The notes under the pieces were generated by a model that saw nothing but the letters and a program-made list of their open reading frames with translations, had not been told where the DNA came from and did not search any database. Source: Wenyingzhuangia heitensis (GTDB lineage Bacteria; Bacteroidota; Bacteroidia; Flavobacteriales; Flavobacteriaceae). Taken from it: a stretch of 64,000 bases of DNA. The stretch covers positions 1,488,001 through 1,552,000 of the forward strand of contig NZ_JAASQL010000001.1 of the NCBI RefSeq assembly GCF_011762155.1. Direction: 5' to 3'. Shown here one piece after another: positions 1,922 to 39,235 of this stretch. How positions within the stretch are numbered: the stretch's first letter is position 1; each line of letters starts with the position of its first letter. Position numbers and translations under genes: made by a program.

Positions 1922-3196
1922 ATGATAAAAAAACTACTAAAATCAACAATTGTTGTTAGTTTCTTGTTTTTAGGAACAGCATTACAAGCACAAACATTTA
2001 ACTTTAATTTAGATTTACAAGATTGGGCAGTCAGTTGGGGAGCAACAAGTACGGTAACTCACGATGCTTCTGAGGGAGTGTCTGGGAGTGGTTCTTTAAA
2101 ATTAGAAAGAACAGGAGCAAATTCAAACTTTGGAATTAAAAATAACGGTTCTGGAACAGTGGTTACTGGAATAAACGCTACAACGGCTAAATTTATTAAA
2201 CTAGTTTATAAGAATGAAACCAACGGAGTAGAGTTAAGACTAGGGGGAACCAATGGAGATGAAGCCTCTATTAAACCAAATGGAGGGTCTGGAAACATTA
2301 CTTTTTCTATAGGGGCTAATTCAGATGAATATATTACTACTTATTTAGATATGAGTGATTATACTTTGTGGACAGGAGATTTAACCAATTTTTATTTAAT
2401 GGTTAGGCAAAATGAACCAGATACTGTAGGAGATGCTTTTTATTTAGATGAAATTGAATTTTTAACTTCTATGCCAGCCATTACGTATTCAGAGTTTATT
2501 AAAAACCCTGGTTTTGATGGTCCTAGTGGAACCACCCATTTGACTGGTGATAAATCTTTTGTTTCTAGAGGAGTTACATCTAGACAAGCACATGACGGAA
2601 CTCAGAGTTTGAAATTAAATTTTACAGACAATGCAGATTCTTCTTTTTGGACTTTTAGTTCTTATGAAAAAGTGTATGGAAGTGCTTTTAATGCAGGAAG
2701 CACCATTCAGGTAAAAATGTGGGTAAAAACCAATCGTGCTTCTGTAATTAATATGTCATCAAGAGTTAAATTAACCAATGGAGGTGTAGACACAGCAACC
2801 AAGCCTATAGCAAGTGTTTCTACAACTAACACAGCTATGGGATGGGAAGAGTTAACGTTTGATTTAACTTGTCCTGATGCTTTTGATGGAGTAGCTTTTT
2901 GGTTCTCTGTGAACTATAATGAAGGAAGTGCTGAGAATTTAGCAAGTGGAGATCTTGTATATGTAGACCAAATTACAGCAACTATTACAGATGCAACTTT
3001 ATCTACAACTAGCAAAAAAATAGAAGGGGCTTCTATTAATGCTACCAATGGAACAGTTTCTGTTTTGGGAGCAAATTTAGATGCTGTTTACTCAATAACA
3101 GGACAACAAGTGAATAATACAGGATTGTCTAGTGGAGTTTATATTGTTAAAATATCAAAAGGAAACTTACAAAATGCTGTAAAAGTTGTTTTGTAA
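1922..3196 (+). CDS. Secreted two-domain carbohydrate-binding-like protein with type IX secretion tail
   Basis: 424 aa. A signal peptide (MIKKLLKSTIVVSF...LQAQ) is followed by two predicted jelly-roll domains: residues about 24-185, ending in the typical FYLDEIEF strand, and about 190-360, starting FIKNPGFDG and ending VYVDQITATI as in CBM4/9-type modules. The last ~65 residues form a Por secretion (type A) sorting tail: YSITGQQVNNTG, LSSGVYIVKIS, and a final VKVVL. No catalytic motif is seen, so it is probably a surface polysaccharide-binding protein. It has its own terminator and follows a GH150-like gene, an arrangement repeated at 3388-7477. Binding specificity cannot be read from the sequence. 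Confidence 0.7.
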   Translation: MIKKLLKSTIVVSFLFLGTALQAQTFNFNLDLQDWAVSWGATSTVTHDASEGVSGSGSLKLERTGANSNFGIKNNGSGTVVTGINATTAKFIKLVYKNETNGVELRLGGTNGDEASIKPNGGSGNITFSIGANSDEYITTYLDMSDYTLWTGDLTNFYLMVRQNEPDTVGDAFYLDEIEFLTSMPAITYSEFIKNPGFDGPSGTTHLTGDKSFVSRGVTSRQAHDGTQSLKLNFTDNADSSFWTFSSYEKVYGSAFNAGSTIQVKMWVKTNRASVINMSSRVKLTNGGVDTATKPIASVSTTNTAMGWEELTFDLTCPDAFDGVAFWFSVNYNEGSAENLASGDLVYVDQITATITDATLSTTSKKIEGASINATNGTVSVLGANLDAVYSITGQQVNNTGLSSGVYIVKISKGNLQNAVKVVL

Positions 3197-3387: not shown

Positions 3388-6309
3388 ATGAATTTAAAAA
3401 ACTACTTTTTAATATTACTTCTTTTTTTAGGTAATACATTTATGTTTTCTCAAAAAACATACAATTTTGAAGAGCAATCTGCCAATTGGCAGACAAGTCA
3501 ATCAGATCAATGGAGTTTTACAACAAGTAAATCTTATGAAGGATCAGAATCCTTAAAATATAATGTACCTGCTAATTCATCTACTAAAGAATTGGGGGCT
3601 ATTTATAGTATAGAAACCAATCATACTATTCATAAAGTTAGAACTGCTAATTTTAATAACACGACTACTATTGTTGCAAGTTCTTATGATGGAATTGTAA
3701 TGGCAGTAGGTTTTGATGGAGTTGTTCTTTGGAAAAATTCATTGTCTGGTTTTATGGTGCACGACTTATGGTGTGCCGATATTACAGGAGACGGAAATGA
3801 TGAAGTCTTAATTGCAAATGCAGACGGTACTATTTTTTGTTTAAATGCAATGGGGATTGAGCAATGGCAGTATCAAAAAAATGAAGTGCCAATGTATGCA
3901 GTTACGGTCGTTAAAAAAGAAGGAATCCCTTATGTCGTTGGAGGAAGTTTAGATTTGAATTGTTATTATTTGTCGGCAACAGGATCTTTGGTAAAAGAGC
4001 TAAAATCTGCAGATTATTCTCAAGAAAAAACATGGGGAGATACTACCGCTAAAGACTTTGTGCATTATGCAAATTTTTTAAGACCGTTAAAAAAAGATAC
4101 TACTAATGATTATTTAATAATGCATGCAAGTAACAATCCGTCTCAAGACAAAGGAGCTATTTATGTGTTTGATGTTTTAGAGGATACTCCAATTAAAAGG
4201 GTAGAAACTGAAGCTACAAGTCCTATAGGAGAATTGCGTTTTTCAGATTATAATAACGATGGAACTTCGGAAATATTGATGGGGGCATCTAATCATCAAA
4301 ATAGTGCCAATGTTTCTCGCTTAAATTTAGCAGATGACACAACCGACCAATATAAATTATCAGGATTAGGTTTTGGATATTCTGTAGTACAACCAGAATT
4401 AATTACAGATGTTTCTGCTGATAAATATATGTTTTTAGTAGGAAATCAAATGATGTTGGTGAATAAGGAATTTGATATTGCTAGCCAAGAAAAGTTACAA
4501 ACTAAGTATTCTTATTACGATATGTGGAAAAAGCCAAATTCCAATCAAATTGTTTTGGCGAGTTGCCAAAGTGGAGGAAGTCAAATTCATATTATGGATA
4601 CCGGTAATCCAGATTGGAAAACAGCCTATGAAGCCTTAATTCCAACAGGTAAAATTAAAGATATTATTGATAATACTGCTGCTGTAAGAACAAACTTGGC
4701 TTCCTATTCAAAGCCATCTACCCAAAGAGCTACAAGAGATGTGTTTTTTATGACAGAAGATACAAGTGAAGGATTGGCTAAAACTACGGCAAATAACATT
4801 CGAAATAATTACACAACTCCTATGTTTTTGGGAGGGAGTCATTTTAGCAAAACAGAAAATTGGGACAGATCTACCATGCCTAATGAAAAATATAAAAACA
4901 AAAGAGATGGTAGAAAAAATTATGTTTTAACACAGCAACAATCTATAGATATGATTACTGCTTGGTATGACGAAAGTCCTCAAGGTGATAAAGGAATTGC
5001 TTATTGGGGAGGTCACGGAAACGATCCTTACTTTTTTCAACTAGAAACAAGAAAACAAACTTTAGACTATGCCAGTGGAAAAAAAACAGTCATGATTTTT
5101 CCAGAATTAGAAGATCATTCAGATGATTTTACTTGGGTTATGAATGATTTATTTTATCCGTTAGCACAATATTCAAAAACTAGAAATGCAAATATTTTTG
5201 TAAGAACCAAACATAATTTCTGGCAAGCAAATGTCTATTTACCTATGTGGAGTGGTTTATTGTCTGGAGAGTATGCAGATGTATTTGTACCTTCTATGGA
5301 AGAAACCACTGACAAAGCTATGGATATTAGCATTGCTAGTAGAGTAGGTGTTTGGGCTAGTGGATCTGTAAATGATTGGGGAACTAGAACAGTGCCAGAC
5401 AATCCTAGTTACGATAGGTCTAGACAGTTTTGTCATCAAATGTTACCCAACCATTTTTTACGTCATTTAGTTTATCATATGGCAAATGGAGCAACATATA
5501 TTAACAACTTTGCCGTAGATCCAGATTATATGAGTATTGTTTGGGATTTGGTGGCTAAGGGAGCGTTGTTTGTGCCTAAAGCCAATGAATTATTAAGTAT
5601 ATCTCCGGTACACATTAGTATGTTAGAACCAGATGATGACTTTTTGTTAGAAGGTAGTAGTTTGAAATGGGGAACACATTATGATGAACAATTTTTGAAC
5701 AATAATCCTTTTGTCTTTAGTAGGCAAAATGCCAATTGGATGGGAGCTAAAAATACCCCTTGGGATTTTTCTAGCTATGCAGGAAACGTAAAAGACAGAA
5801 GACAAAATTACTTGCCAAATTATCCTAATGGATTGGTCTTGATTACACCACCACAAACAGGAGCTAATGCAGATGTAACGGCTCCCAGAGGTTTGTTAAA
5901 AGACAATTTGCATCCGTTATACAAAGATATTTTAAAAGAATACTTTACAGATGGACGATATTATTATTCGGCAGATGGAACACAAACATTTAATGCGGAT
6001 CAATTTTATACAACCGTTGAGGCTGATATTAAAGAAAGTGCTAAAAAAATACCATTAACTGTAAGTGGAGATGTCGCTTGGGTAGTAGCACAAACATCAC
6101 CTACCAATTTAAGACTAACAATTATTGATGGAGGTTATTTAAACCCTGAAGACAGAACAGCTTTGGTAACTTTTCAGAGTTTGTCTGCTGTAGGAATGAA
6201 AGATATTTTAGATGGGACTACTTACAATTCGTCAGGGACTGTAGAGGTTAAAATACCAAAAGGATCTTTTAGGTTTTTAGATATTACATTAAGCTCACCT
6301 TTAAATTAA
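3388..6309 (+). CDS. GH150-like (lambda-carrageenase-like) beta-propeller enzyme, copy 2
   Basis: 973 aa from the ATG at 3388, chosen because it opens directly into a signal peptide (MNLKNYFLILLLFLGNTF); the longer frame back to 3292 needs a TTG and an unlikely leader. Residues ~25-60 resemble the first strands of a CBM. Residues ~70-440 are propeller blades with FG-GAP/PQQ-like repeats (DITGDGNDEVLIANADG, DYNNDGTSEILMG). The C-terminal module (~450-973) carries YWGGHGNDPY (H543), PELED (E573, E575, D576) and SMEETTDKAMD (E638, E639), shared by all paralogues. Size and layout match the 942-residue GH150 lambda-carrageenase, predicted to have an N-terminal propeller. It is followed 7 bp later by a T9SS protein. 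A different galactanase specificity is possible. Confidence 0.65.
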   Translation: MNLKNYFLILLLFLGNTFMFSQKTYNFEEQSANWQTSQSDQWSFTTSKSYEGSESLKYNVPANSSTKELGAIYSIETNHTIHKVRTANFNNTTTIVASSYDGIVMAVGFDGVVLWKNSLSGFMVHDLWCADITGDGNDEVLIANADGTIFCLNAMGIEQWQYQKNEVPMYAVTVVKKEGIPYVVGGSLDLNCYYLSATGSLVKELKSADYSQEKTWGDTTAKDFVHYANFLRPLKKDTTNDYLIMHASNNPSQDKGAIYVFDVLEDTPIKRVETEATSPIGELRFSDYNNDGTSEILMGASNHQNSANVSRLNLADDTTDQYKLSGLGFGYSVVQPELITDVSADKYMFLVGNQMMLVNKEFDIASQEKLQTKYSYYDMWKKPNSNQIVLASCQSGGSQIHIMDTGNPDWKTAYEALIPTGKIKDIIDNTAAVRTNLASYSKPSTQRATRDVFFMTEDTSEGLAKTTANNIRNNYTTPMFLGGSHFSKTENWDRSTMPNEKYKNKRDGRKNYVLTQQQSIDMITAWYDESPQGDKGIAYWGGHGNDPYFFQLETRKQTLDYASGKKTVMIFPELEDHSDDFTWVMNDLFYPLAQYSKTRNANIFVRTKHNFWQANVYLPMWSGLLSGEYADVFVPSMEETTDKAMDISIASRVGVWASGSVNDWGTRTVPDNPSYDRSRQFCHQMLPNHFLRHLVYHMANGATYINNFAVDPDYMSIVWDLVAKGALFVPKANELLSISPVHISMLEPDDDFLLEGSSLKWGTHYDEQFLNNNPFVFSRQNANWMGAKNTPWDFSSYAGNVKDRRQNYLPNYPNGLVLITPPQTGANADVTAPRGLLKDNLHPLYKDILKEYFTDGRYYYSADGTQTFNADQFYTTVEADIKESAKKIPLTVSGDVAWVVAQTSPTNLRLTIIDGGYLNPEDRTALVTFQSLSAVGMKDILDGTTYNSSGTVEVKIPKGSFRFLDITLSSPLN

Positions 6310-7594: not shown

Positions 7595-9055
7595 ATGAAA
7601 AAAACAATCAAGTCAGTATTATTAACAAGTGTTATTTTTTTAGCAGCCTGTAGTCCTAAAGAAAAAAAGGAAACGGTAAAAAACACAAAACCAAACATTG
7701 TGTTGTTTGTGGCCGATGATCATGGTAAAGATGCTTTGGGAAGTTATGGGAATCCAATAATTCAAACTCCTAACTTAGATAGAATGGCATCAGAAGGTGT
7801 CCGTTTTAACAATGCTTATTGTACTAGTGCTAGTTGTGCAGCAAGTAGATCTGTAATTTTAACAGGAAAATTTGGTCATGCAACAGGTTCTTATGGTCAC
7901 GTTCACGATTACCATCACTTTAGTACGTATGATAATGTAAAGTCTTTACCTGTTTTGTTAGAAAAAGCAGGTTATGAAACGGCTAGAATTGGTAAATACC
8001 ATGTAGCTCCAGAAAAAGTATATCATTTTAATACTGTTTTAAAAGCTGACCCTAGAAGTACGCTAGAAATGGCAGATGCTTGTGTAGATGTTATCCAATC
8101 AGAAAAACCATTTTTCTTGTATTTCTGTACCGATGATCCACATAGAGGACATCCATTTGTTTCTGAACCTTGGAATTTGCCCAATACGTTTGGAAATAAA
8201 ACAGAACCTTACCCAGGAGAAAATCAAATTGTATACGATCCTAATGATGTAGTTGTCCCCGATTTTTTACCAGATACTAAAGAAAGTAGAGAAGAAATTG
8301 CTCAATATTACCAAAGTATTTCTAGAATAGATCAAGGTTTTGGTCGATTGATGACTCATTTAAAAGAAGCAGGAAAGATGAATAATACAATTGTTTTTTA
8401 CATTTCGGACAACGGAATGGCTTTTCCTGGTGCAAAAACAACGGTTTATGAACCAGGAATTCAACTACCTTGTATTATTAAAGATCCTACCAAAAAAGGA
8501 AATAAAGGTGGTGTGAATAATGCTAAGATTTCTTGGGTAGACTTAACACCAACTATTTTAGATATGGCTAATGTTCCGTTTGATACAAAAGAATTTCACG
8601 GAAAATCTTTCAACGCTATTATAGAACAAGAAAATCCAAAAGGTTGGGATGAGGTTTATGCATCACACACGTTTCATGAAATTACCATGTATTACCCTAT
8701 GAAAGTAGCAATAGAGGGTAAGTATAAATTGATATGGAATATAGCCTGGCAGTTAGATTATCCTTTTGCTTCAGATTTATGGGCATCTTCTACTTGGCAA
8801 AGTGTGTATAGAAACCATTCAAAAATGTATGGGAACAAAACAGTAGAAGAGTATTTAAAACATGCCGAATTTGAATTGTTTGATTTGGAAAAAGATGCAG
8901 GAGAAACCAACAATTTGGCCGATAAAAAAGAGTATCAAGAAGTATTAAAACACATGAAGGCAAAGCTGAAAAAGTTTCAGTTAGAAACAAGAGATCCTTG
9001 GTTAATTATGTGGGATCATGACAATACTTTACAAGGAACAGGAGTAGATTTATAA
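7595..9055 (+). CDS. S1 family sulfatase, lipoprotein, with CAASR active-site motif
   Basis: 486 aa. Lipoprotein signal with lipobox LAAC (Cys19), so probably membrane-anchored and periplasm- or surface-facing. The alkaline-phosphatase-like fold starts at NIVLFVADDHG (metal-binding Asp pair). The formylglycine Cys is C81 in CAASR; the usual Pro is replaced by Ala, a variant tolerated in some sulfatases. The second metal site is ISDNGMAFPGAK, and the C-terminal subdomain has FELFDLEKDAGETNNL. The pattern is closest to sulfamidase/heparan-sulfatase-like S1 proteins and shares SDxGMxFP with the sulfatase at 44432. Its likely job is removal of one sulfate position from galactan oligosaccharides; the exact position is unknown. 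It lies 35 bp upstream of the FAD oxidoreductase. Confidence 0.85.
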   Translation: MKKTIKSVLLTSVIFLAACSPKEKKETVKNTKPNIVLFVADDHGKDALGSYGNPIIQTPNLDRMASEGVRFNNAYCTSASCAASRSVILTGKFGHATGSYGHVHDYHHFSTYDNVKSLPVLLEKAGYETARIGKYHVAPEKVYHFNTVLKADPRSTLEMADACVDVIQSEKPFFLYFCTDDPHRGHPFVSEPWNLPNTFGNKTEPYPGENQIVYDPNDVVVPDFLPDTKESREEIAQYYQSISRIDQGFGRLMTHLKEAGKMNNTIVFYISDNGMAFPGAKTTVYEPGIQLPCIIKDPTKKGNKGGVNNAKISWVDLTPTILDMANVPFDTKEFHGKSFNAIIEQENPKGWDEVYASHTFHEITMYYPMKVAIEGKYKLIWNIAWQLDYPFASDLWASSTWQSVYRNHSKMYGNKTVEEYLKHAEFELFDLEKDAGETNNLADKKEYQEVLKHMKAKLKKFQLETRDPWLIMWDHDNTLQGTGVDL

Positions 9056-9090: not shown

Positions 9091-11046
9091 ATGGAAAGAA
9101 GAAAATTTTTAAGAAATGTAGCAGGGGTAGCCGTAGCATCTAGTGTGTTACCTTTAACAACTTCGTGCAAATCTTTAGAAGGTTCTGCAACAAGCTTAGG
9201 AGCAAGTGGAAATGGAGGAGATGAACAGTGGTATCAATTAGGAACAGGAAAAAAAGTTGCAAACCCAACACGTAAAAAGACAGAGGAGTATGATGTGGTA
9301 GTAGTTGGAGCTGGTATTGCCGGTATTTCTGCAGCAGTAGCTTCTGCAAGAAATGGAGCCAAAACGGTATTGATTAATGATAGACCTGTGTTGGGAGGAA
9401 ATGCTTCTAGCGAAATTCGTGTAACACTAAATGGAGTAAACCGTTTGTCTACAGGGTTGGCAGAACGTGAAACAGGTATTGTTGAAGAAATGATGTTAGA
9501 AAACCGTTTGTACAACCCGCAACAATCTTATCCTGTATGGGATCATATTGTGTACGATTATGTATCTAGAGAACCTAATTTAACCATCATGTTAAATACA
9601 CAGGCTATAGATGCAGAGACTAAAGGAAATAAAATTGTATCTGCTCGTTGTTGGCAATTAACTACAGAAACAGAATTTACCATTAAAGCACCTGTGTTTA
9701 TAGATTGTTCTGGTGACGGATTGATGGCTGCTAAAGCAGGAGCATTGTACAGAACAGGTCGTGAAGGAAAAGCAGAGTTTAATGAATCTTATGCACCAGC
9801 TGAACCAGATGGATGGCAAATGGGAGCTTCAATTTTATTGCAAGGTAGAGATTATGGTAGACCAATGCCTTATACTCCACCTGCATTTGCTAAAAAATAT
9901 GATGGAGACAATGCCAATCACGAAAGAAAAATCAATAATTATTTAGATGGTTATTGGTGGGTTGAGTTAGGGAGTGATCATGATATTATTGATGTGCAAG
10001 AAGACAATAGACATGATTTGATGGGGTATTTACATGGAGTTTGGGATTATATTAAAAATTCAGGAAAATTTCCAGATTCAGAAAATTATGCTTTAGACTG
10101 GGTAGGTTCTTTGCCAGGACGTAGAGAGTCTCGTCGTTTTATAGGTGATCATATGTTGTCTGAAACCGATTTAACTGGGCACAGACATTATGAAGATGCT
10201 ATTGGTTATGGAGGTTGGTCTTTAGATGAACACAATCCAGGTGGAATTCTAGATATTAAGGAAAGACCAAGTTTTTTTCATGAAAAATTTAAAACTGTTT
10301 ATCAAGTACCTTTTAGTTCTTTGTATTCTAAAAATATAGAAAACTTAATGTTTGCCGGACGTAATGCTAGTTTAACACACATTGCTTTGTCGTCTACAAG
10401 AATTCAGGGAACTTGTGCATTAATGGGGCAGGCTGTAGGTACCGCAGCAACTATTTGTGCAAGTAAAGGAATTACACCAAGAGAGGTAAAGCAAAAATAC
10501 ATCAAACAATTGCAAGAAATGTTAATGCGAGATGATGTATATATTCCTAAAGTTGCCGCTAACGACCCTAAAGATTTGGCTAAAAAAGCAAGTGCTGTTT
10601 TTGGTTCTTCAACCAAATCTGGAGCAGCTAAAAATGTAATTAACGGAATTTCTCGTGATATTGATGGGGAAATCAATCACTGGCAGTCTGAAGGTTTGCC
10701 AGCTACTTTTCAAATGGAGTGGGATACACCTATTCAACTGTCAAAAGTTGAGATTAAGTGTGACACCAATTTACACAAAAACATCACCATGCGTAAGCAA
10801 CCTTTGTCAGATTGGCAAAAGAAATCGTTTATAGAAACGGTTCCTCCAGAATTATTAAAAGAATTGGATTTAGAGGTTAGAGTAAATGGAGCTTGGGTAA
10901 AAGTTGGAGTAAAAGATAGAAATATAGCTCGTTTGATAAAATTTAATTTTGATGAAGTTAAAACATCAGCTATTAGAATTCGTTTAAAAGAAACTTACGG
11001 ACATCCTACTGCTAAATTGTTTGAAGTACGTGCGTACGAATCTTAA
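9091..11046 (+). CDS. Tat-exported FAD-dependent oxidoreductase with C-terminal discoidin-like domain
   Basis: 651 aa. The N-terminus MERRKFLRNVAGVAVA is a twin-arginine signal and is followed by a lipobox-like TTSC, so the protein is folded with its cofactor before export and possibly lipid-anchored. Dinucleotide-binding motif VVVGAGIAGISAA (G73, G75, G78). Further FAD-oxidoreductase (GIDA/FAD_oxidored type) landmarks: GGNASSEIR, IDCSGDGLMAAKAG, LMFAGRNAS, and GTCALMGQAVGTAA near the end of the flavin domain. Residues ~500-651 look like an F5/8-type carbohydrate-binding sandwich. Homologues occur in polysaccharide loci but the substrate is not established. The next gene encodes a putatively flavinylated protein that could be its electron partner (inference). 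Confidence 0.8.
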   Translation: MERRKFLRNVAGVAVASSVLPLTTSCKSLEGSATSLGASGNGGDEQWYQLGTGKKVANPTRKKTEEYDVVVVGAGIAGISAAVASARNGAKTVLINDRPVLGGNASSEIRVTLNGVNRLSTGLAERETGIVEEMMLENRLYNPQQSYPVWDHIVYDYVSREPNLTIMLNTQAIDAETKGNKIVSARCWQLTTETEFTIKAPVFIDCSGDGLMAAKAGALYRTGREGKAEFNESYAPAEPDGWQMGASILLQGRDYGRPMPYTPPAFAKKYDGDNANHERKINNYLDGYWWVELGSDHDIIDVQEDNRHDLMGYLHGVWDYIKNSGKFPDSENYALDWVGSLPGRRESRRFIGDHMLSETDLTGHRHYEDAIGYGGWSLDEHNPGGILDIKERPSFFHEKFKTVYQVPFSSLYSKNIENLMFAGRNASLTHIALSSTRIQGTCALMGQAVGTAATICASKGITPREVKQKYIKQLQEMLMRDDVYIPKVAANDPKDLAKKASAVFGSSTKSGAAKNVINGISRDIDGEINHWQSEGLPATFQMEWDTPIQLSKVEIKCDTNLHKNITMRKQPLSDWQKKSFIETVPPELLKELDLEVRVNGAWVKVGVKDRNIARLIKFNFDEVKTSAIRIRLKETYGHPTAKLFEVRAYES

Positions 11047-11185
11047 GAACAATTGGTTTAAAAAAGTACAATAAGTGTTGTTGTTGGTATATTCTATTTG
11101 ATAATTACCAACAGCAAACTTGTTTGTATCTAAAAATATTTCATCAATTTTGGTAGTTGACTTGAGTAAATCTAAAAACACAAAA

Positions 11186-12379
11186 ATGAATCAGAAGCAA
11201 TTCTCTTTTTTTAAAAATAAACAACCAAAAACAACAAGTTTTTGGGTTGTAAAGTTTGTAATGGGGCTTTTGTTTTTGGTTACTGTTTTTGGTTTGCAAT
11301 CAAGTACAACTCCTAACCCACAACAAAAAGTACACAATATAGAAGTGTTTCAGCCTGCTGTAGACAAAGTAAAGCCCATAAACTGTAAGTTAGTTGAAGA
11401 AACTTTACTAGACGGGACACAACGTTTTTATGTAGATGTAAATTCGGTAAACTGCGGAGAAAATATTTGTGAAGTTATTGTAGTTCGAGTTTTTTTTGAT
11501 GAATTAGGAAGGTATCAAAGAATAGATTTAGAGCCAGGAGATGAGTTGGAAAAAGCCAAAGGAAAACCATTTACTAAAGAAGATTATAGCAAACTAGAAG
11601 AAATTTTAAACAATAAAAACTCAGAATTAAAAGTAGTTTTTAAAGAAGACCTAGTAACTAGTGATGTTGTAGAAAGAGGGAATTCTGATATTGATGGAAT
11701 TTCAGGAGCAACCTCCTCTATCAGTCCATCAGAAACAGTAGAAGGTGCCGTATGGACTTGTTACACTCTGTGGCATTGGGCAAATGGAGATGTGGTAAAA
11801 AATATCCGAAAAATTAGAGCACACCAGCTAAAAAACACAGATTTGGTTACTGATTTTTTACAAAGAACAGATTTTGGATATCAACAATTTGCCATAGATT
11901 ATTTAACAGAAAGAAAAGTGTACGATTCTGTAACTGTTTCCGCGGTAAAACAAGAAGGAATACAAGGGGATTATCCTTTATTTAAAGAAGTGCTTTCTTA
12001 TGTAGAACAAAGTCCAGATACCACTTATTACAAAGTAATAAAAGATCTTTTTGAAAAAGGAAATTATAAAAAAAGAGTTGCTTGTTTAAACTCAGTGTCC
12101 TTTTTACAAAAACAACAAAACGCAAGTTTTTTTGATGAATTAAGTACTCAAATAAATACATTCTCTTATCAAGAAGTAGAAATGTTTTTAACCATCCTTC
12201 AACTTAACAGCTATAAGTCTACAGTCTTAAAAACAGAACTGATAAAATTGTTAAACAATTCTAATTTTCTAATTGCCCGAAGAGCCTACTGGTTTATAGG
12301 TAATAATCATTTAGAGTTATCGGAAAATCAACAAAAAAAAGTTTCAGGTTTTCAAAAAAAATACGAAAACAGATTATAA
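11186..12379 (+). CDS. Membrane-anchored protein with ApbE-type flavinylation (FMN-binding) motif and helical repeats
   Basis: 397 aa from the ATG at 11186, chosen over an upstream start at 11120 because it places one transmembrane helix (FWVVKFVMGLLFLVTVFGL) near the N-terminus. Residues ~55-185 resemble an FMN-binding domain and end in DIDGISGATSSIS. The SGAT block with Thr176 fits the Dxx(S/T)GAT(S/T) pattern to which ApbE links FMN covalently. The C-terminal half (~200-397) is mainly helical and HEAT-repeat-like. It lies after the FAD oxidoreductase and 15 bp before GH110, suggesting an extracytoplasmic electron carrier for the oxidoreductase. The flavinylation motif is seen; the electron-transfer role is inferred. 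No ApbE gene is visible here. Confidence 0.6.
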   Translation: MNQKQFSFFKNKQPKTTSFWVVKFVMGLLFLVTVFGLQSSTTPNPQQKVHNIEVFQPAVDKVKPINCKLVEETLLDGTQRFYVDVNSVNCGENICEVIVVRVFFDELGRYQRIDLEPGDELEKAKGKPFTKEDYSKLEEILNNKNSELKVVFKEDLVTSDVVERGNSDIDGISGATSSISPSETVEGAVWTCYTLWHWANGDVVKNIRKIRAHQLKNTDLVTDFLQRTDFGYQQFAIDYLTERKVYDSVTVSAVKQEGIQGDYPLFKEVLSYVEQSPDTTYYKVIKDLFEKGNYKKRVACLNSVSFLQKQQNASFFDELSTQINTFSYQEVEMFLTILQLNSYKSTVLKTELIKLLNNSNFLIARRAYWFIGNNHLELSENQQKKVSGFQKKYENRL

Positions 12380-12394
12380 TAAAATAAAGAAATA

Positions 12395-14221
12395 ATGAAG
12401 TCAGAAAATAAAATATTAAAAGTGTTTTTATGCTTGTTAATTGTCTTATCAACACGTGTAAATGCAAAAGAAATCATCAACATAAAACCAACAAATGGTG
12501 ATGTGACTACTCTTGTTAGAAATGCCATAGAGAACACTAAAGACAAAGATATAAAGTTGGTGTTTGAAAAAGGAACTTATCAGTTTTTGCCTGATTATGC
12601 CAAAGAGCAATTCTCTTTTGTTACCAATCACGGAAATGGGTTAAAGAAAATAATTTTCTTATTTCAAGATTTAAATTCTGTAGAAATAGAAGGAAACGGA
12701 TCGGAGTTTATTTTTCATGGACACACAGCACCGTTTCAGTTTTTAAATTGTAACCATATATCTGTTAAAAATATTACGATAGATTGGGATGTGCCTTTTA
12801 GTTTTCAGGGAGATGTAACGGCTACAAATTCAGAAGAAAAGTGGATAGAAATAAAACCTTATACCAAAGGGTATTCTTGGAAATTACAAAGAGGAAGAAT
12901 TTATTTCCCTAACATAGATAATTTTCATTTTGCATCTTTAGGAAGTACATTAACGTTTGATAAAGACACAAAACAAGTAGCTTACGGAGCTTTAGATTTT
13001 AGTTTACGTCCTAGTAAGGTAGAAAAAAGACCCAACGGGATTTTACGTATTTACGATGAGCATATTAGAAAATATCCAGAAGTTGGAGTGGTTATCCATT
13101 CTAAAGGACCACATGAAGAAAACAGATATGCACCTGCATTCCAAACCAAAAACTCTAGCAATGCTGTTTTTGACAATGTAACTATTCACCACGCATTAGG
13201 AATGGGATTTTTGTTTGAGAGAACTGATGGTATTCAAATCTTGAATTCTGGAATTTACATCAAAGAAGGATCAGATAGAGCTATTTCTACCATTGCAGAT
13301 GCAACTCATTTTGCCAATTGTAAAGGAGGTGTATTGATAGAAAATTGTCGTTTTGAAGGAATGTTAGATGACGGAACCAATGTACATGGAACGTATGTAG
13401 AGGTAAATAAAATCATCAATAAAAATACGGTAAGAGTGTTGTTAAAACATTTTGAACAAACAGGTTTTGAATTTGCAGGTAAAGGAGATGAGGTTTGGTT
13501 TATAAAAACTCCAAACCCAGATAGAGGAGAAGTTGCTGTGGTGTCTAATGTGAAATATGTAAATGAGTATTATTCTGATATTACTTTTTCAAAAGAAGTA
13601 CCATCAGACTTAAAAACGGGAGATATTTTAGAAAATAAAACGTGGAACCCTGTGTTTACCATGAGAGGTTGTACGATTAGAGATCATAGAGCAAGAAATA
13701 TCATCATTAAAACACCTTTAAAAATAATTATAGAAGACAATGATTTATCCTCTATGATGTCGTCTATTATGTTAAGAGGAGAAAGCTATTTTTGGTATGA
13801 ATCTGGAAGTGTAGAAGATGTGGTAATTCGTAACAATCGTTTTAAGCATGTAGCTTATGGTGGAGCCTCAGAACACGCAGTATTAAAGGTTTCTCCTAGA
13901 TTAGGAAAAACATTCAATCAATCTGCTTTGTATGATAGAAACATTGTGTTTGAAAACAATACCATTGAAACTTTTGATAATAGAATTATCTGGGCAGACA
14001 GGCTAGATGGATTGATTGTAAAAGGAAACACCATCAAACAAACAACTACAGAAAAACCTCAATTTCCAAATGCTCCGTTATTTGAGTTGATAAACTGTAA
14101 CAATGTAGAAATTACTAAGAACAGGTACGAAGGAAATGTAACCAATTACTTTAAAGTAGATAAAACATCTGCCAAAACCTTAAAAGTAAAACGCAACAAA
14201 GGTTTTAAGTACAAAAAATAA
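12395..14221 (+). CDS. GH110-like exo-alpha-1,3-galactosidase, parallel beta-helix
   Basis: 608 aa with signal peptide (ends VNA). Right-handed beta-helix repeats dominate: VEIEGNGSEFIFHG, ISVKNITIDWDVPF, AVFDNVTIHHALG, VLIENCRFEG, IIIEDNDLSS, VVIRNNRFKH. The GH110 signature region is ISTIADATHFANCKG then MLDDGTNVHGTY, in which the D325-D326 pair corresponds to the acidic active-site pair of this inverting family. GH110 enzymes remove terminal alpha-1,3-galactose, including from blood group B and, in a marine Pseudoalteromonas, from lambda-carrageenan fragments. Here it would act on the alpha-1,3-linked galactose of carrageenan oligosaccharides. It is the last gene before a terminator and has a paralogue at 17709. 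Confidence 0.8.
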   Translation: MKSENKILKVFLCLLIVLSTRVNAKEIINIKPTNGDVTTLVRNAIENTKDKDIKLVFEKGTYQFLPDYAKEQFSFVTNHGNGLKKIIFLFQDLNSVEIEGNGSEFIFHGHTAPFQFLNCNHISVKNITIDWDVPFSFQGDVTATNSEEKWIEIKPYTKGYSWKLQRGRIYFPNIDNFHFASLGSTLTFDKDTKQVAYGALDFSLRPSKVEKRPNGILRIYDEHIRKYPEVGVVIHSKGPHEENRYAPAFQTKNSSNAVFDNVTIHHALGMGFLFERTDGIQILNSGIYIKEGSDRAISTIADATHFANCKGGVLIENCRFEGMLDDGTNVHGTYVEVNKIINKNTVRVLLKHFEQTGFEFAGKGDEVWFIKTPNPDRGEVAVVSNVKYVNEYYSDITFSKEVPSDLKTGDILENKTWNPVFTMRGCTIRDHRARNIIIKTPLKIIIEDNDLSSMMSSIMLRGESYFWYESGSVEDVVIRNNRFKHVAYGGASEHAVLKVSPRLGKTFNQSALYDRNIVFENNTIETFDNRIIWADRLDGLIVKGNTIKQTTTEKPQFPNAPLFELINCNNVEITKNRYEGNVTNYFKVDKTSAKTLKVKRNKGFKYKK

Positions 14222-24483: not shown

Positions 24484-25806
24484 ATGGTTTATAAACAAAT
24501 AATGACATTAATTTCAATGCTTGTTTTTTTTAATTGTTCTACTAATTTAGATAGAGAAATAGTAGATAATGAAGAAAACATAAAGGAAGAAGAAGTAGAG
24601 GAAGAAGGTTTGGTGATTAATGAAGATGATTTTTATATAGCACCCACAAGTTTTGTTGTTTCTAAAAATCTAAAAACAGATTATTCTGTAGATAATGATT
24701 TTGATACAAATGATAGTGAAAACTTACAGAATGCAATCGATTTTATTTCGGATAACGGAGGAGGGAAATTAACAATTCCTGCTGGTAATTATTCTTTTGC
24801 TGAAGTGTTTTTAAAATCTAATGTTCACCTTGAAATTGATGCAAACGCAATAATTAGACCAGCTGAAATTGAAAGTAAAAGAAACAGAAACTATGCAATA
24901 TTTAAAGTAACAAATGATGCTAGTAGTACTCTTGTAGAAAATGTAAGTATTTGCGGTGTTAACGGAAATTTTGTAGTAGATCTTAGAGAAACAGCGACTG
25001 ATTTTTTAAACATCAGAATCATTCAATCCTATAATGTATCTAATTTTAAATATTCAAATATAACTGTACAAGATAATTTTTCTAAATTTTCAACTTTAGA
25101 GTTTAATGGAGTTAAAATAGGAGATCGTGTGTATGGACCAAGAAAAGGAGTTATAAAAAATATTGATTTGTACAATTCAGATTATGGTTATGGTGTTGTA
25201 CAGTTACAGTTGGCTAAAGAGTTATTGTTTAAAAACTTATATGGACAAGGAGGAGCAACGCTAAGAATAGAAACACATAATAAAGTACTAAGAGAACTAG
25301 GTACTTATGATCTTGTAGATGAAATTTATGGTAGAGACATCAGATCAGAAAATGGAAACAGCGCAGTAATGCTATCTCCTCACTTTATAGATCAAGGTAA
25401 AGTAGATATAAGAGGAATAACTTCTATAGGTAGTGGTTTTGCAGTAAGAATAAATAAAGGTTTTGCTTCACCAGAAGAGGCTGAAGAAGGATTGGGAGCG
25501 GGATCATTTAGTAGTAGCTCTATTATAAGAGATGTTTCAGCTAGTTTTTCAATAGACAAAGCACAAATTAAACCTAAACATTATAATTATATGCCTTGTA
25601 GTTTAAGAGAGCATATATCATCAGAACCTATTAGTGATTTTCCACATGGAGATAGTTACAACGGACCATCTATTGCAGCCGTTTTATATACACCAAACTA
25701 TACTATAGATATTAGAGAAAAAGATATTTCTACAGTAGGATTTTCGGATGGTTTAGAAATAGTTACAGATGAAGATCTTAAAAATGACAACGAGTGTAGT
25801 TTGTAA
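24484..25806 (+). CDS. GH82-like (iota-carrageenase-like) beta-helix lipoprotein lacking the catalytic Asp
   Basis: 440 aa. Lipobox FFNC (Cys18), then an acidic linker. A right-handed beta-helix opens with LQNAIDFISDNGGGKLTIPAGNYSF. Residues matching those recalled for Alteromonas fortis iota-carrageenase (Q222, E245, D247, H281) are Q240 (VQLQLAK), E263 (TLRIETHN) and H300 (LSPHF), with spacing 23 and 37 against 23 and 36. The position of D247 is H265. AVRINKGF also matches the family pattern. The fold and family placement are therefore well supported but activity is uncertain; it may cut a different carrageenan or use another base. It is embedded between two sulfatases with gaps under 20 bp. 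Confidence 0.65.
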   Translation: MVYKQIMTLISMLVFFNCSTNLDREIVDNEENIKEEEVEEEGLVINEDDFYIAPTSFVVSKNLKTDYSVDNDFDTNDSENLQNAIDFISDNGGGKLTIPAGNYSFAEVFLKSNVHLEIDANAIIRPAEIESKRNRNYAIFKVTNDASSTLVENVSICGVNGNFVVDLRETATDFLNIRIIQSYNVSNFKYSNITVQDNFSKFSTLEFNGVKIGDRVYGPRKGVIKNIDLYNSDYGYGVVQLQLAKELLFKNLYGQGGATLRIETHNKVLRELGTYDLVDEIYGRDIRSENGNSAVMLSPHFIDQGKVDIRGITSIGSGFAVRINKGFASPEEAEEGLGAGSFSSSSIIRDVSASFSIDKAQIKPKHYNYMPCSLREHISSEPISDFPHGDSYNGPSIAAVLYTPNYTIDIREKDISTVGFSDGLEIVTDEDLKNDNECSL

Positions 25807-34568: not shown

Positions 34569-37319
34569 ATGAAAAAAATAGCATGTCTGTTACTTGTTCT
34601 TTTTGGGTTGCAAAATACAAATGCAAATTCAGGAATTAAAAGTATTGAAACCGATTATACCATCATGAAAGTTAGAGTGATGCAGTATAAAAATACAACA
34701 AAAATTATTGGGACTAGTTATGAAGGTACGGTAGTTTGTTATGATTATAGCGGAAAGTTACAATGGAAAAATAAGCTTTCTGGTTTTATGAATAATGATA
34801 TATATTGTGCAGATATAGATAAGGATGGAAAAGACGAAGTACTTGCTCCAAATGCCGATGGAAATATATATTGTTTAGATGACGATGGAAAACTATTATG
34901 GAAATTTAGACAAAATTCAGCTCCTCTTTTATCTGCAACCGTAGTTTCTGATGGAACAACAAAATATGTAGTTTGTGGTGGTTACGATAAAAATGTTCAT
35001 TACCTAACTACAACAGGAAAATTAATAAAATCAATTCCTTCTACTTCTTATAGTATAGAAAAGAAATTCAAAAATCACGCAATCAATTATCTTAGAACAG
35101 TTCAACAAAACGGACAAGAGGTTTTGGTGGTTTTAAGTGCGTTTAATACCAATTACGATCAAGGAGTTTTGTATTATTTTAAGCCTTTAGAAGATAAACC
35201 CTATCAATTTGCAAAAATGAAAGGAAAAGGAGGAGGAGGTTCTTGTCCTGGTACTTTTGCTATAAATGATATTATCCCTGGAAATACAGAAATATTATTA
35301 GGAGGAAATGGGTTGAATAAGTTACAGGTATCAGTTGCTTCAGTAGAAAAGTGTTCAGCCGAAAAAATGAATTTTAGATTTAATAATGAAAGAACTGATC
35401 TTGGAAAAGTAGGATATCGTTTAGCATCAGCAGAAGCAGTACCTTATAAAAATAGTTTTAAGTATTATGTGCTTTTTGGGAGTAGAATGTTTTTGGTAGC
35501 TCCAGAAAAAAATGGAGAGGCAACTGAAATTATTGAAAGTAATTATGCGTTTAATGATATGTGCAAAGATGCTAACAATCAAAAAATACTTTTGGCAAGT
35601 GCACAAAGTGGAGGTAGCTGCATTCATGTATTAGATTATACAAATAATGATTGGAAAAAGGATTTTGAAAAATTAAATCCTCCTGGTAAAATTGCCAAAA
35701 TTTTAATGAATACAAGTGATTTTAGTAAAAAGCTAAGAAAGTTTAAAACTCCAAATTGGGAAAGTCAGAAAGTGACAGTTAAAGTAATGTCTTCAGGTTT
35801 AGAGAAAGAAGAAATAAATGCCTTGGCTAGAGAAAACAGTAAAAACCTTGTTATTATAGAAGATGTAAGAAAATTGTATCCTCATGTAGAAAATTGGGAT
35901 CGTTCAGAAATGGAGAACAAAGTATCTAGAGAAACAAGAGATCATCGTAAAAAATACGATTTAACAAGCAACCAGGCTTTTAGCTCATTTAAAAAAGGAT
36001 TAGATGCTTCGGGTACAGGAATTCAATATTGGCAAGGACACGGTAGAGATGTTTATTTTTATTCGCTACCAACTATAAAGAGAGTAGTAGATTATGCTGG
36101 CGATAAAACGGTAATTCCTGTATTTGCAGAATTAGAACAACACGATGCCGATATAGAATGGATGGTAGAAGATTTTATGTATCCATTAGCAAGTTATTTA
36201 CAAGGAACCAATAGTTTTATTTCTATGAGAAATAAGCATCTATTCTGGCAATCTGTAGTATATACTCCTGCTTGGAAACGTTTGGTTTCTGGTGAGTTTC
36301 CAGATGCTTTTGTTTCTTCTATGGAAGAATCTAACAGTAAAACTATGGACATGAGTATTTCGGGTAGAATGGGCTTGTGGGCAGCAGGATCTATGAATCA
36401 GTGGGGAGCACGTTTTACGCGAGACAATCCTTGTTACGATAGGTTAAGACAATTGTCATATCAAAAAGTACCCAATCATGCTTTGCGAATGTTTGTACAT
36501 CAAATAGCAAGTGGAGCATCAGTAGTACATAATACAAAAGTAAATGCAGCGTATCAAAAAGTATTGTGGGACATGATTGCAAAAGGAATTTTATACGTTC
36601 CTACAAGAAATGAAATTGTAAGTTTTAATCCTGTTCATGTAAGTATGTTAACTCCAGATTCTTTGTTTTTAGAAAGAAATCATGTAAAAGATGTAACGAT
36701 TTACGATGCTGATTTTGAAAAAAATAATCCAATGGTAATTAGTCGTACTACAGGAGTTTTTGCAGGTGCCCCCGTAACAAAGTGGGATTTTTCCAACTAT
36801 GCTTCAGGAGCCAAAGAGCGAAGGTTAGAGTTTTTGCCATCGTACACTAACGGAATGGTTTTAACAACCCCACCAACTGATAAAAATTCTAAAAGAGGAA
36901 CTTTAGAAAGTCACTTACATCCTATTTATAAAAACAATACCAAAGAGTTTTTTACAGATGGAAGAAACTATTATAGTGATGTTGCTAAAACCAAAACATA
37001 CAAAGCAGATGAATATTATACAACAGTTAAAAAAGCAATTGAAGAAGGTGCCCAAAAAATGCCTTTAACTGTTAAAGGACGTGTAGCCTGGGTAACGGCT
37101 CAAACAGCCCCCAAACATTTACGTTTGACTTTGGTTGATGGAGGTTATGTAAATCCGGATGATAGGGTTGCTACTGTTACATTTCATACAGCAAAAGTGA
37201 AAAAAATCATCAATTTATTAACCAATGAAGAAGTGAAATTTAATTCAGAAAAAGCAACAATAATTGTTCCTTGTGGATTGTTTGTGTTTTTAGATATTGA
37301 ATTAAAGAAAGCTTTGTAA
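34569..37319 (+). CDS. GH150-like (lambda-carrageenase-like) beta-propeller enzyme, copy 3
   Basis: 916 aa, signal peptide MKKIACLLLVLFGLQNTNA. Propeller blades at ~25-370 (IIGTSYEGTVVCYDYSG, ADIDKDGKDEVLAPNADGN, YVVCGGYDKNVHYL) with Ca-binding-type DxDxDGxDE loops. The catalytic-module blocks are conserved: YWQGHGRDVY (H491), FAELEQHDAD, SMEESNSKTMD, WGARFTRDNP. Unlike copies 1 and 2 it has no CBM-like N-terminal piece and no adjacent T9SS protein. It ends a run of desulfating and exo-acting genes, suggesting joint regulation. Likely endo-hydrolysis of sulfated galactan; sequence differences around SMEESN may shift specificity. Confidence 0.65.
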   Translation: MKKIACLLLVLFGLQNTNANSGIKSIETDYTIMKVRVMQYKNTTKIIGTSYEGTVVCYDYSGKLQWKNKLSGFMNNDIYCADIDKDGKDEVLAPNADGNIYCLDDDGKLLWKFRQNSAPLLSATVVSDGTTKYVVCGGYDKNVHYLTTTGKLIKSIPSTSYSIEKKFKNHAINYLRTVQQNGQEVLVVLSAFNTNYDQGVLYYFKPLEDKPYQFAKMKGKGGGGSCPGTFAINDIIPGNTEILLGGNGLNKLQVSVASVEKCSAEKMNFRFNNERTDLGKVGYRLASAEAVPYKNSFKYYVLFGSRMFLVAPEKNGEATEIIESNYAFNDMCKDANNQKILLASAQSGGSCIHVLDYTNNDWKKDFEKLNPPGKIAKILMNTSDFSKKLRKFKTPNWESQKVTVKVMSSGLEKEEINALARENSKNLVIIEDVRKLYPHVENWDRSEMENKVSRETRDHRKKYDLTSNQAFSSFKKGLDASGTGIQYWQGHGRDVYFYSLPTIKRVVDYAGDKTVIPVFAELEQHDADIEWMVEDFMYPLASYLQGTNSFISMRNKHLFWQSVVYTPAWKRLVSGEFPDAFVSSMEESNSKTMDMSISGRMGLWAAGSMNQWGARFTRDNPCYDRLRQLSYQKVPNHALRMFVHQIASGASVVHNTKVNAAYQKVLWDMIAKGILYVPTRNEIVSFNPVHVSMLTPDSLFLERNHVKDVTIYDADFEKNNPMVISRTTGVFAGAPVTKWDFSNYASGAKERRLEFLPSYTNGMVLTTPPTDKNSKRGTLESHLHPIYKNNTKEFFTDGRNYYSDVAKTKTYKADEYYTTVKKAIEEGAQKMPLTVKGRVAWVTAQTAPKHLRLTLVDGGYVNPDDRVATVTFHTAKVKKIINLLTNEEVKFNSEKATIIVPCGLFVFLDIELKKAL

Positions 37320-37634: not shown

Positions 37635-38975
37635 ATGGTTATTAAATTCAAACTCTGCTTATTTATTTTTTCAATTTTTGTATTGTCAGCTTGCTCAAAA
37701 TCTAATAGCGAAATAGATAATGCAAACCCTGTAGATCCAGCTGAGGAAGAAAAAGAAGAAGAGGTAGAAGTTGCAGTTGCTAATGAAGAAGATTTTTATG
37801 TAGAAACATGGAATATTGGTGTGACTAAAGATTTAGTAGCGGATTATGGTGCGAATGGTAATGATACTAATAATGATTCAAGTATATTACAAACAGCTAT
37901 TGATGATTTAACAGCTTTAGACAATGGTGGGAAAATTAAGATACCCGCAGGGGTTTATTATTTGGGAAATATAAAGATGAAATCAAAAGTTCATTTGGTT
38001 TTTCATAAAGATGCCATTATACGTCCTATAGTACCAGCTACAGGAAATTGGAGAATTTTTTCATTTGGTAAAAATTCAGAAACTATAGAAGACGTTAGTA
38101 TTAGAGGTGATGGAGGAAAATTCACGATTGATTTTAGAACGCCGGATGTTGCTGTGAATAACAGAGGCCAAGTGTTTTTAGTGCTGAATGTGAACAATTT
38201 TTTAATAGATAGTTTTCATTTGCTAGATAATAATACAATTTTTAATGCTGCAAATTTTGGGTTTACAGAATATGAAGGTTCGTATTATGGTCCTCAAAAT
38301 GGTGTGTTTAAAAATGCAAGTGACGATAGAGCTCATGCAGGGTATGGTGTAGCACAAGTTAGAATAGGAAAACATATTTTGTTTAAAGATGTTGTTGGGA
38401 ATGGAGGTGTAACATTAAGAATTGAATCAGGTTCAGTGCAAATTGTAGACCTGCATGAAGTAACACATAATTTAGGTGTTTTTGATATTGTTGGGCGAAA
38501 TATTTCTGGGTCAAATAGTAATTCTGTAATTATGATATCTCCACATACAATGACTAATGGGAAAGTGGATATAGACAATGTGACTTCAACAAATTGTGCT
38601 ACAGCAGTAAGAGTAGATAAAGGTTTTGAAGAGCACGGTTACCCCGCAGGAACTTTTTCTGATGATTGTAAAGTAACTAATGTAACCGCTAGTTATGGAG
38701 AAAGTGCACAGCTTAATTGGTGGAGAGTAAAGTACTTGCCTTGTGATACGGAAATTAGAGATTTAGTTGCTACAACTTTAAATGTCGATGGAGAAAGTTA
38801 TAATGCACCATCTATAGCAGCAATTATCAACACAGCATCTTCAACAGGAGACGGGATGTTTAATGTTAACTTTTCAAATGTAAAGCAAAATGGGTTTTTG
38901 TATCAATCAAAAACAATGTTGACTCAAGATGATATAACAAATACTACAAAAGACTCATGGCCATATTGTGAATAA
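37635..38975 (+). CDS. GH82-like (iota-carrageenase-like) beta-helix lipoprotein lacking the catalytic Asp, copy 2
   Basis: 446 aa. Lipobox LSAC (Cys20), then an acidic Glu-rich linker. A right-handed beta-helix starts at LQTAIDDLTALDNGGKIKIPAG. Equivalents of iota-carrageenase Q222/E245/H281 are Q241 (GYGVAQVRIGK), E264 (TLRIESGS) and H304 (ISPHTM); the D247 position is G266. AVRVDKGF and the final CDTEIRDL/SYNAPSIAA blocks are shared with 24484-25806, so the two genes are paralogues. Both keep the same three of four recalled active-site residues. Membrane anchoring suggests action at the cell surface or in the periplasm. Activity on iota-, lambda- or hybrid carrageenan is unresolved. Confidence 0.65.
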   Translation: MVIKFKLCLFIFSIFVLSACSKSNSEIDNANPVDPAEEEKEEEVEVAVANEEDFYVETWNIGVTKDLVADYGANGNDTNNDSSILQTAIDDLTALDNGGKIKIPAGVYYLGNIKMKSKVHLVFHKDAIIRPIVPATGNWRIFSFGKNSETIEDVSIRGDGGKFTIDFRTPDVAVNNRGQVFLVLNVNNFLIDSFHLLDNNTIFNAANFGFTEYEGSYYGPQNGVFKNASDDRAHAGYGVAQVRIGKHILFKDVVGNGGVTLRIESGSVQIVDLHEVTHNLGVFDIVGRNISGSNSNSVIMISPHTMTNGKVDIDNVTSTNCATAVRVDKGFEEHGYPAGTFSDDCKVTNVTASYGESAQLNWWRVKYLPCDTEIRDLVATTLNVDGESYNAPSIAAIINTASSTGDGMFNVNFSNVKQNGFLYQSKTMLTQDDITNTTKDSWPYCE

Positions 38976-39235
38976 ATTATAGATAACACTTAAATTATTT
39001 TTTAAATGTATATGCATTAGTTATTTCATTTAAATTTTAGCAACATAAATAAAATCTATTAGAAGAAAAATAGATTAATGAGTCAAAAAAGTATTGTGAT
39101 TGGTTTGTATAAGTATTGTATTAAATTTTGTTTTTTGGTTTAAATGTAAGAATACAATTGATAAACAGTAGAGGACATAGTATATGCACATGTTTTTTTC
39201 TTTTGAATAATATTCAAAAAACAAATAATTTAATC

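Follow-up and report, generated by a model that had tools for sequence, protein, structure and literature searches.

A predicted exported FAD oxidoreductase and a candidate flavinylated partner are encoded side by side in a lambda-carrageenan-type locus of Wenyingzhuangia heitensis and in other bacteria

Features of the gene pair

The window analyzed here is a 64,000-nucleotide stretch of the Wenyingzhuangia heitensis genome (contig C1, positions 1488001-1552000, within a genome of 3.67 Mb), and by its gene content the whole of it is a predicted large lambda-carrageenan-type locus. Within it lie two neighboring genes, here called gene A and gene B (Table 1), which encode a predicted exported flavin adenine dinucleotide (FAD)-dependent oxidoreductase and a predicted carrier of covalently bound flavin mononucleotide (FMN). 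An earlier note on this DNA had placed the pair between a sulfatase gene and a glycoside hydrolase family 110 (GH110) gene, which the Pfam matches bear out, and had proposed it as a redox step in sulfated galactan breakdown. Below, L numbers label single loci or neighborhoods and G numbers label genomes.

Gene A matches PF12831 (FAD_oxidored) over the entire profile (1-416 of 416, E 3.3e-89, 300.5 bits with a cut-off of 27), and this genome contains four full-length PF12831 genes. Both the twin-arginine translocation (Tat)-type signal and the GxGxxG motif that had been described for it are present. Of 22 aligned relatives, 20 have two consecutive arginines among residues 1-12; the other two are L028, whose start was placed too far upstream, and L021:538. 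By eye, the sequence TTSCKS near the N-terminus could be a lipobox. The glycines G73, G75, and G78 are unchanged across 22 sequences, and from about residue 500 on the protein contains a beta-rich C-terminal domain.

Gene B is present in one copy in this genome and had no significant family match in Pfam, NCBIfam, or PDB sequences. Its start was set at the ATG at 11186; a longer open reading frame (ORF) with a TTG start begins at 11120. The transmembrane helix claimed by the earlier note was recovered as a hydrophobic helix in the AlphaFold2 model, where it may represent either a signal anchor or a cleaved signal peptide. Based on this helix and on inspection by eye, gene B is probably exported or membrane-anchored, and some relatives resemble Sec-signal proteins or lipoproteins by eye. 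Among the 50 of 769 Foldseek rows listed for the whole model, most were helical-repeat proteins of the TOG/HEAT type (best E 7.5e-3). The conserved cysteine and histidine set of the family consists of C90, C95, and the WTCYTLWH signature, with C95 unchanged in all 31 relatives and C90 kept in 30. A metal site formed by C90, C95, C192, and H197 was considered from the suggestive spacing and is not claimed; C90 is lost in 1/31, C192 in 2/31, and H197 in 1/31.

Table 1 Features of the gene pair and of the surrounding window (positions are those of the window)
Feature	Position	Strand	Basis or remark
Gene A, exported FAD-dependent oxidoreductase (predicted), 651 aa	9091..11046	+	PF12831
Twin-arginine signal-like N-terminus of gene A, MERRKFLRN...TTSC	9091..9168	+	sequence
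GAGIAG dinucleotide-binding motif of gene A, aa 73-78	9307..9324	+	sequence
Gene B, predicted covalent-FMN carrier, 397 aa	11186..12379	+	ATG start
N-terminal hydrophobic helix of gene B, aa 17-40	11234..11305	+	AlphaFold2
Flavinylation motif DGISGAT of gene B, aa 170-176; predicted FMN on Thr176	11693..11713	+	sequence
WTCYTLWH signature of gene B, aa 190-197, on helix past flavinylation motif	11753..11776	+	alignment
HEAT-like helical domain of gene B, aa 202-392	11789..12361	+	AlphaFold2 model, helices from about 202
S1-type sulfatase (context, not core)	7595..9055	+	35 bp upstream of gene A; PF00884 E 4.1e-50; active-site CAASR
GH110-type protein, GLAA-B barrel and beta-helix (context, not core)	12395..14221	+	15 bp past gene B; PF23763, PF23764
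GH150 lambda-carrageenase-type, three genes	134-1738, 3388-6309, 34569-37319		Pfam
GH110-type, two genes	start 12395, 17709		Pfam
GH2, four genes	start 27236, 31279, 45988, 56826		Pfam

Genes A and B occur together in distant hosts

A pattern-based scan of genome contigs, with gene B as the query, gave 21 loci. Gene A adjoins gene B in 20 of these, the exception being L023, whose contig starts within gene B; in L018 gene A is cut to a fragment by the contig end, and in L029 an in-frame stop interrupts it. By record name, the hosts include flavobacteria, Flammeovirga, Reichenbachiella, Dyadobacter, a planctomycete (L020), Microbulbifer, Colwellia, and Catenovulum, and with the planctomycete and the gammaproteobacteria the pair reaches beyond the phylum of the window. 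In a second, independent sample of 395 genomes of that phylum, eight genomes carried gene B (nine genes), each time with an adjacent gene-A-type ORF (9/9). These gene-A-type calls were made with our own profile, and for L057 and L059 also via Pfam. The order varied among the nine: a gene for ApbE (PF02424, E 2e-77) lies between A and B in L061, and in L060 gene B comes first and the ApbE gene (E 1.8e-78) immediately follows the pair. Since adjacency was found in nearly all loci of the first set and in all of the second, including those of the planctomycete and the gammaproteobacteria, the pairing is not a chance arrangement. The earlier note had named a lack of conserved pairing elsewhere as grounds for refuting its proposal; such pairing was found in both samples.

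Given the chosen start codons, no bases separate the two genes, or their ends overlap (gap <=0), in 11 of the 18 loci measured. The A and B distance matrices, from which L018, L029, and L059 were left out beforehand, were correlated (r 0.88 for n=27, compared with a highest value of 0.42 in 2000 permutations), a result that is also expected from co-inheritance alone. Among 72,556 plasmids, both records that matched at least 80% of gene A also carried gene B, with the genes adjacent in Flammeovirga and a sulfatase between them in Persicobacter; in 12 further plasmid records, gene A matched only in part and more distantly, and gene B had no match. The series sulfatase, A, B, GH110, and GH42-like gene recurs in Wenyingzhuangia (L015) and Ochrovirga (L016), with GH150 upstream in both, and the order A, B, GH110, GH42-like is found in L018, a Flavobacteriaceae metagenome-assembled genome whose contig starts inside gene A.

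Two of these loci have further peculiarities. On the Flammeovirga plasmid (L127, 11246-15057), a redoxin-domain gene lies directly 5' of gene A, and gene B is annotated as a hypothetical protein. In the Dyadobacter pair (L029, 6032-9103), besides the stop in gene A, gene B lies in two overlapping frames, which reflects either decay of the pair or a sequencing error.

Gene B carries an ApbE-type flavinylation motif

The experimentally defined minimum motif for ApbE comprises seven residues, D-x-x-[S/T]-G-A-[S/T], according to the available part of PMC12052999, and DGISGAT in gene B is an exact fit. Thr176 had already been named as the flavinylation site in an SGAT motif, with correct numbering. 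All 31 gene-B relatives retain both D170 and T176, and the strict pattern D..[ST]GAT occurs in 25/31 gene-B ORFs versus 1/303 other ORFs from the same neighborhoods; the motif is therefore above chance. Departures at one position were found in five relatives (L021, L028, L034, L060, L062), all of which retain the acceptor threonine. From the motif, we infer that gene B would carry covalent FMN on Thr176.

The match of gene B to the FMN_bind domain (PF04205) is below threshold (13.6 bits with a cut-off of 22, E 0.11; 16.2 bits in the genome-wide search). FMN_bind was still the commonest Pfam match within the gene-B family (10 of 23 members, best E 0.013), and hhalign aligned gene B with NqrC-type FMN_bind sequences at 82-87% probability across the motif. 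This genome encodes one ApbE (E 6.1e-80) and one clear FMN_bind protein, which is distinct from gene B and NqrC-like by eye.

Gene B mostly accompanies predicted exported relatives of gene A

In a tree of 39 gene-A relatives, which has long branches and unsure joins between clades, clade I has a Tat-type N-terminus and includes gene A of the window. Clade II has Sec-type signals (by eye) and an additional N-terminal region, with gene B adjacent apart from L053. A third clade contains six cytoplasmic-looking relatives without a signal-like N-terminus, and none of these has gene B directly beside it (in flanks of 0.6-1.5 kb for five and a longer flank for one, L056). The gene-B search gave no match in three of the genomes with signal-less relatives (G150, G249, G253), and the signal-less relative of W. 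heitensis coexists with the pair of the window. Judging from these sequences, gene B mostly goes with exported gene-A relatives, exceptions apart, a distribution consistent with gene B acting alongside oxidoreductases located outside the cytoplasm. Two clade I paralogues of this genome (C1:1559975 and C2:47149) have an adjacent sulfatase and no adjacent gene B. L059 (5519-8689), which adjoins gene B and could not be placed in the tree, encodes a 1057-aa gene-A relative that has nucleotide-binding-like segments at two places, around aa 47 and around aa 408.

Genomic context hints at galacto-configured substrates

In the 21-locus set, 12 of 19 testable loci have a sulfatase of the window type directly adjoining gene A; in the second set, 2 of 8 do. 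GH110 homologues are present in 7 of 29 neighborhoods and GH127 homologues in 3 of 29 (one Pfam-confirmed), and GH29 alpha-L-fucosidase genes occur in two clade II loci (L055 and L060), with a homologue in the clade I locus L019. We guess at a galacto-configured substrate because of the GH110, GH127, GH16, and sulfatase neighbors in clade I together with these GH29 genes; the other pair loci have no neighbor that hints at one.

The proposed redox step in sulfated galactan breakdown is retained in part. The pair often lies beside sulfatases and galactan hydrolases. A need for it in carrageenan breakdown is unsupported, because the window already holds the enzyme kinds of an all-hydrolytic cascade and the GH150 plasmid of Pseudoalteromonas carrageenovora, searched without the chromosome, has no match to gene A at E 1e-20 or to gene B at E 1e-5. 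That cascade is the one described for lambda-carrageenan in Pseudoalteromonas distincta, with ten hydrolases and five sulfatases (PMC12549532, available part); the window shares its GH150, GH110, GH2, and S1 kinds, and the words oxidoreductase, flavin, and FAD do not occur in its text. Restriction to galactans is also too narrow, because a divergent subfamily of the pair is found in other glycan loci, two of them with alpha-L-fucosidase genes.

Transporter genes adjoin the pair or a gene-A relative in three loci (PF00083 in L063, CstA in L056, SSF in L021). CstA, of a pyruvate/peptide transporter family, was considered as a third component and rejected, with homologues in too few neighborhoods (4/29, one Pfam-confirmed). 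A link to a 3-keto-glycoside pathway via PF06439 was likewise dropped: of the 11 matches in this genome, one lies outside the window at a distance of 2.5 kb from a gene-A paralogue, and in 8 genomes no PF06439 3-keto-glycoside hydrolase was found beside the pair. In two loci, L026 and L062, the neighbors of the pair include genes resembling by eye those for coenzyme A (CoA)-transferases, an enoyl-CoA hydratase, and an aldehyde dehydrogenase, and in L062 a Pfam-confirmed solute-binding-like protein is encoded nearby.

Proposed function and alternatives

Starting from what the sequences contain, namely the PF12831 domain, the flavinylation motif, the signal-like N-termini, the tight and widespread pairing, and an ApbE gene beside the pair in two cases, we give an even chance to A and B forming an extracytoplasmic dehydrogenase plus covalent-FMN carrier that acts on galacto-configured sugars. 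Gene A would be exported folded with its FAD by a Tat-type signal and would oxidize a hydroxyl of a sugar or oligosaccharide freed from the glycan by the neighboring sulfatases and hydrolases. The likeliest targets would be galacto-configured residues, D-galactose of sulfated galactans for the subfamily of the window and possibly L-fucose for some other subfamily members. ApbE would flavinylate gene B on Thr176, and gene B would accept electrons from the FAD of gene A and hand them on to the membrane or another carrier, while the keto-sugar product would then be eliminated, hydrolyzed, or imported. In this scheme we infer the electron flow between A and B, its direction, the substrate, the fate of the product, and the electron acceptor.

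Several observations weigh against this dehydrogenase-carrier scheme. The structure model of gene A is poor (mean pLDDT, the predicted local distance difference test score, of 72), and therefore no catalytic residues were assigned; the motif loop of gene B (160-175) was modeled at pLDDT <50. With the motif masked, the hhalign probability (26 NqrC-type sequences) drops to 0.2%, and the top PDB profile match of gene B to an FMN domain, 8p2b, has an E of 0.61 and covers the motif region alone. FMN_bind homology by profile was rejected, as only the motif aligns; from the low FMN_bind scores and the loss on masking, gene B is therefore filed as a candidate ApbE substrate and not as an FMN_bind member. 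An ApbE gene adjoins the pair in just 2 of 29 neighborhoods searched, and its presence in all 29 gene-B genomes says little because 260 of 395 genomes of the phylum carry one. The immediate neighbors of the pair, the sulfatase and the GH110-type gene, include no electron-transfer partner. Among the clades, G182 and G190 have a complete pair about 10-12 kb from a signal-less relative, gene B was not found in the genome of L053, which was placed in clade II, and four exported-clade relatives lack an adjacent gene B (L008/L063, L009/L064, L067, L021:538). In those four cases gene B is encoded elsewhere in the genome, about 5.5 kb off for L021, and one gene B may serve several oxidoreductases.

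The main rival is the reductive direction, since respiratory reductases are among the known flavinylated partners of this type (PMC8238504, available part): electrons from the membrane would pass via gene B to gene A, which would reduce a keto sugar, an unsaturated sugar, or some other organic acceptor. Several characterized fumarate-reductase-like enzymes linked to FMN-binding domains, namely fumarate, urocanate, and methacrylate reductases, are described in the same part of that paper as extracytosolic and respiratory, and fumarate reductase/complex II flavoproteins are among the top Foldseek rows for gene A (template modeling (TM) score 0.21-0.28 by query length). Gene A is nevertheless a PF12831 protein whose flavocytochrome c match in sequence searches is confined to the nucleotide-binding region, and its surroundings are catabolic glycan clusters, so we consider this direction unlikely. 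More generally, Foldseek matches of gene A to fumarate reductases, reductases, and monooxygenases all had low TM scores, and assigning a function from the fold search was dropped. The DxxSGAT loop might instead be structural, with gene B an unflavinylated binding or assembly partner of gene A acting via its HEAT-like domain, as the absence of FMN_bind similarity beyond the motif and the single-position breaks in 5/31 relatives would allow; the invariance of T176 and D170, the acceptor threonine still held by the deviating sequences, and the ApbE gene within the cluster in L060 and L061 make this improbable in our view.

It is very improbable that the pair oxidizes something other than sugar, for example to make or repair the formylglycine of adjacent sulfatases. 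Gene A does lie directly beside a window-type sulfatase in 14 of 27 testable loci, as do the paralogues in L063 and L064, and this genome has no anaerobic sulfatase-maturating enzyme (anSME) above the curated cut-off. However, it encodes a homologue of the formylglycine-generating enzyme (PF03781, E 4.5e-63), and the other 13 testable loci lack such a sulfatase directly beside gene A. A bolder form of the dehydrogenase-carrier scheme, which we regard as distinctly unlikely, is a periplasmic oxidative route in which a hydroxyl near a glycosidic bond or sulfate (e.g. at C4 or C3) would be oxidized and sulfate or sugar would then be lost by elimination at sites where hydrolases cannot act; gene B would drain the electrons and found a new class of ApbE substrates.

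Relation to known systems

Gene B resembles the PF04205 carriers (NqrC, RnfG, PplA, and fumarate-reductase-like fusions) in its DxxSGAT motif, its probable export or anchoring, the ApbE gene beside the pair in two genomes, and its FAD oxidoreductase partner. It differs from them in a score below the cut-off with likeness confined to the motif, in its own C90, C95, and WTCYTLWH signature and HEAT-like domain, and in a PF12831 partner where PF04205 systems have PF00890. By analogy, the pair is also similar to the LacABC lactose 3-dehydrogenase and DUF1080/PF06439 route in periplasmic, membrane-linked glycoside oxidation (PMC9007349, available part), but its electron partner is a putative FMN protein and no PF06439 gene was found beside it in 8 genomes.

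Surveys of extracytoplasmic flavinylation used ApbE and PF04205 as queries, with a few more domains added later (PMC8238504, PMC11334425), and polysaccharide, sulfatase, and sugar are not mentioned in their main texts. Such surveys could easily have missed a carrier of the gene-B type, which falls below the PF04205 cut-off and is tied to a PF12831 enzyme. Among the open-licence literature matches listed, none gave an account of the A-B pair by title or abstract opening; a figure legend on carrageenan loci (PMC5698469, available part) lists genes labeled "FR/SR" and "UNK", which may be A and B. We judge flavinylation-based extracytoplasmic electron transfer to be a known kind of system and the carrier type and partner to be new. 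If the scheme is right, it would add a redox step to extracellular glycan breakdown, the exported PF12831 clade would gain a testable role, and gene B would be a readily assayed new ApbE substrate.

Other features of the window and its surroundings

The Pfam scan of the window covered 30 of 33 ORFs of at least 150 aa, leaving out those at 39128, 50995, and 59929, and identified nine sulfatase genes. GH150, GH110, GH2, and S1 sulfatase genes, which together mark a lambda-carrageenan locus, are all present; this describes the locus rather than the pair. Four ORFs of 424-850 aa (1922-3196, 24484-25806, 37635-38975, 41824-44376) had no Pfam match at E 1e-6. The GH150-type protein at 134-1738 has the middle and C-terminal domains and, unlike the two other GH150 genes, is missing the beta-propeller domain; it may be a shortened variant or may be cut near the window start. 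Just beyond the window (L063, C1:1552001-1571000), about 13 kb holds genes for Agarase-CBM and xylose-isomerase-like proteins, a sulfatase, a gene-A paralogue, a sugar transporter, a short-chain dehydrogenase/reductase (SDR), and a PF06439 3-keto-disaccharide hydrolase.

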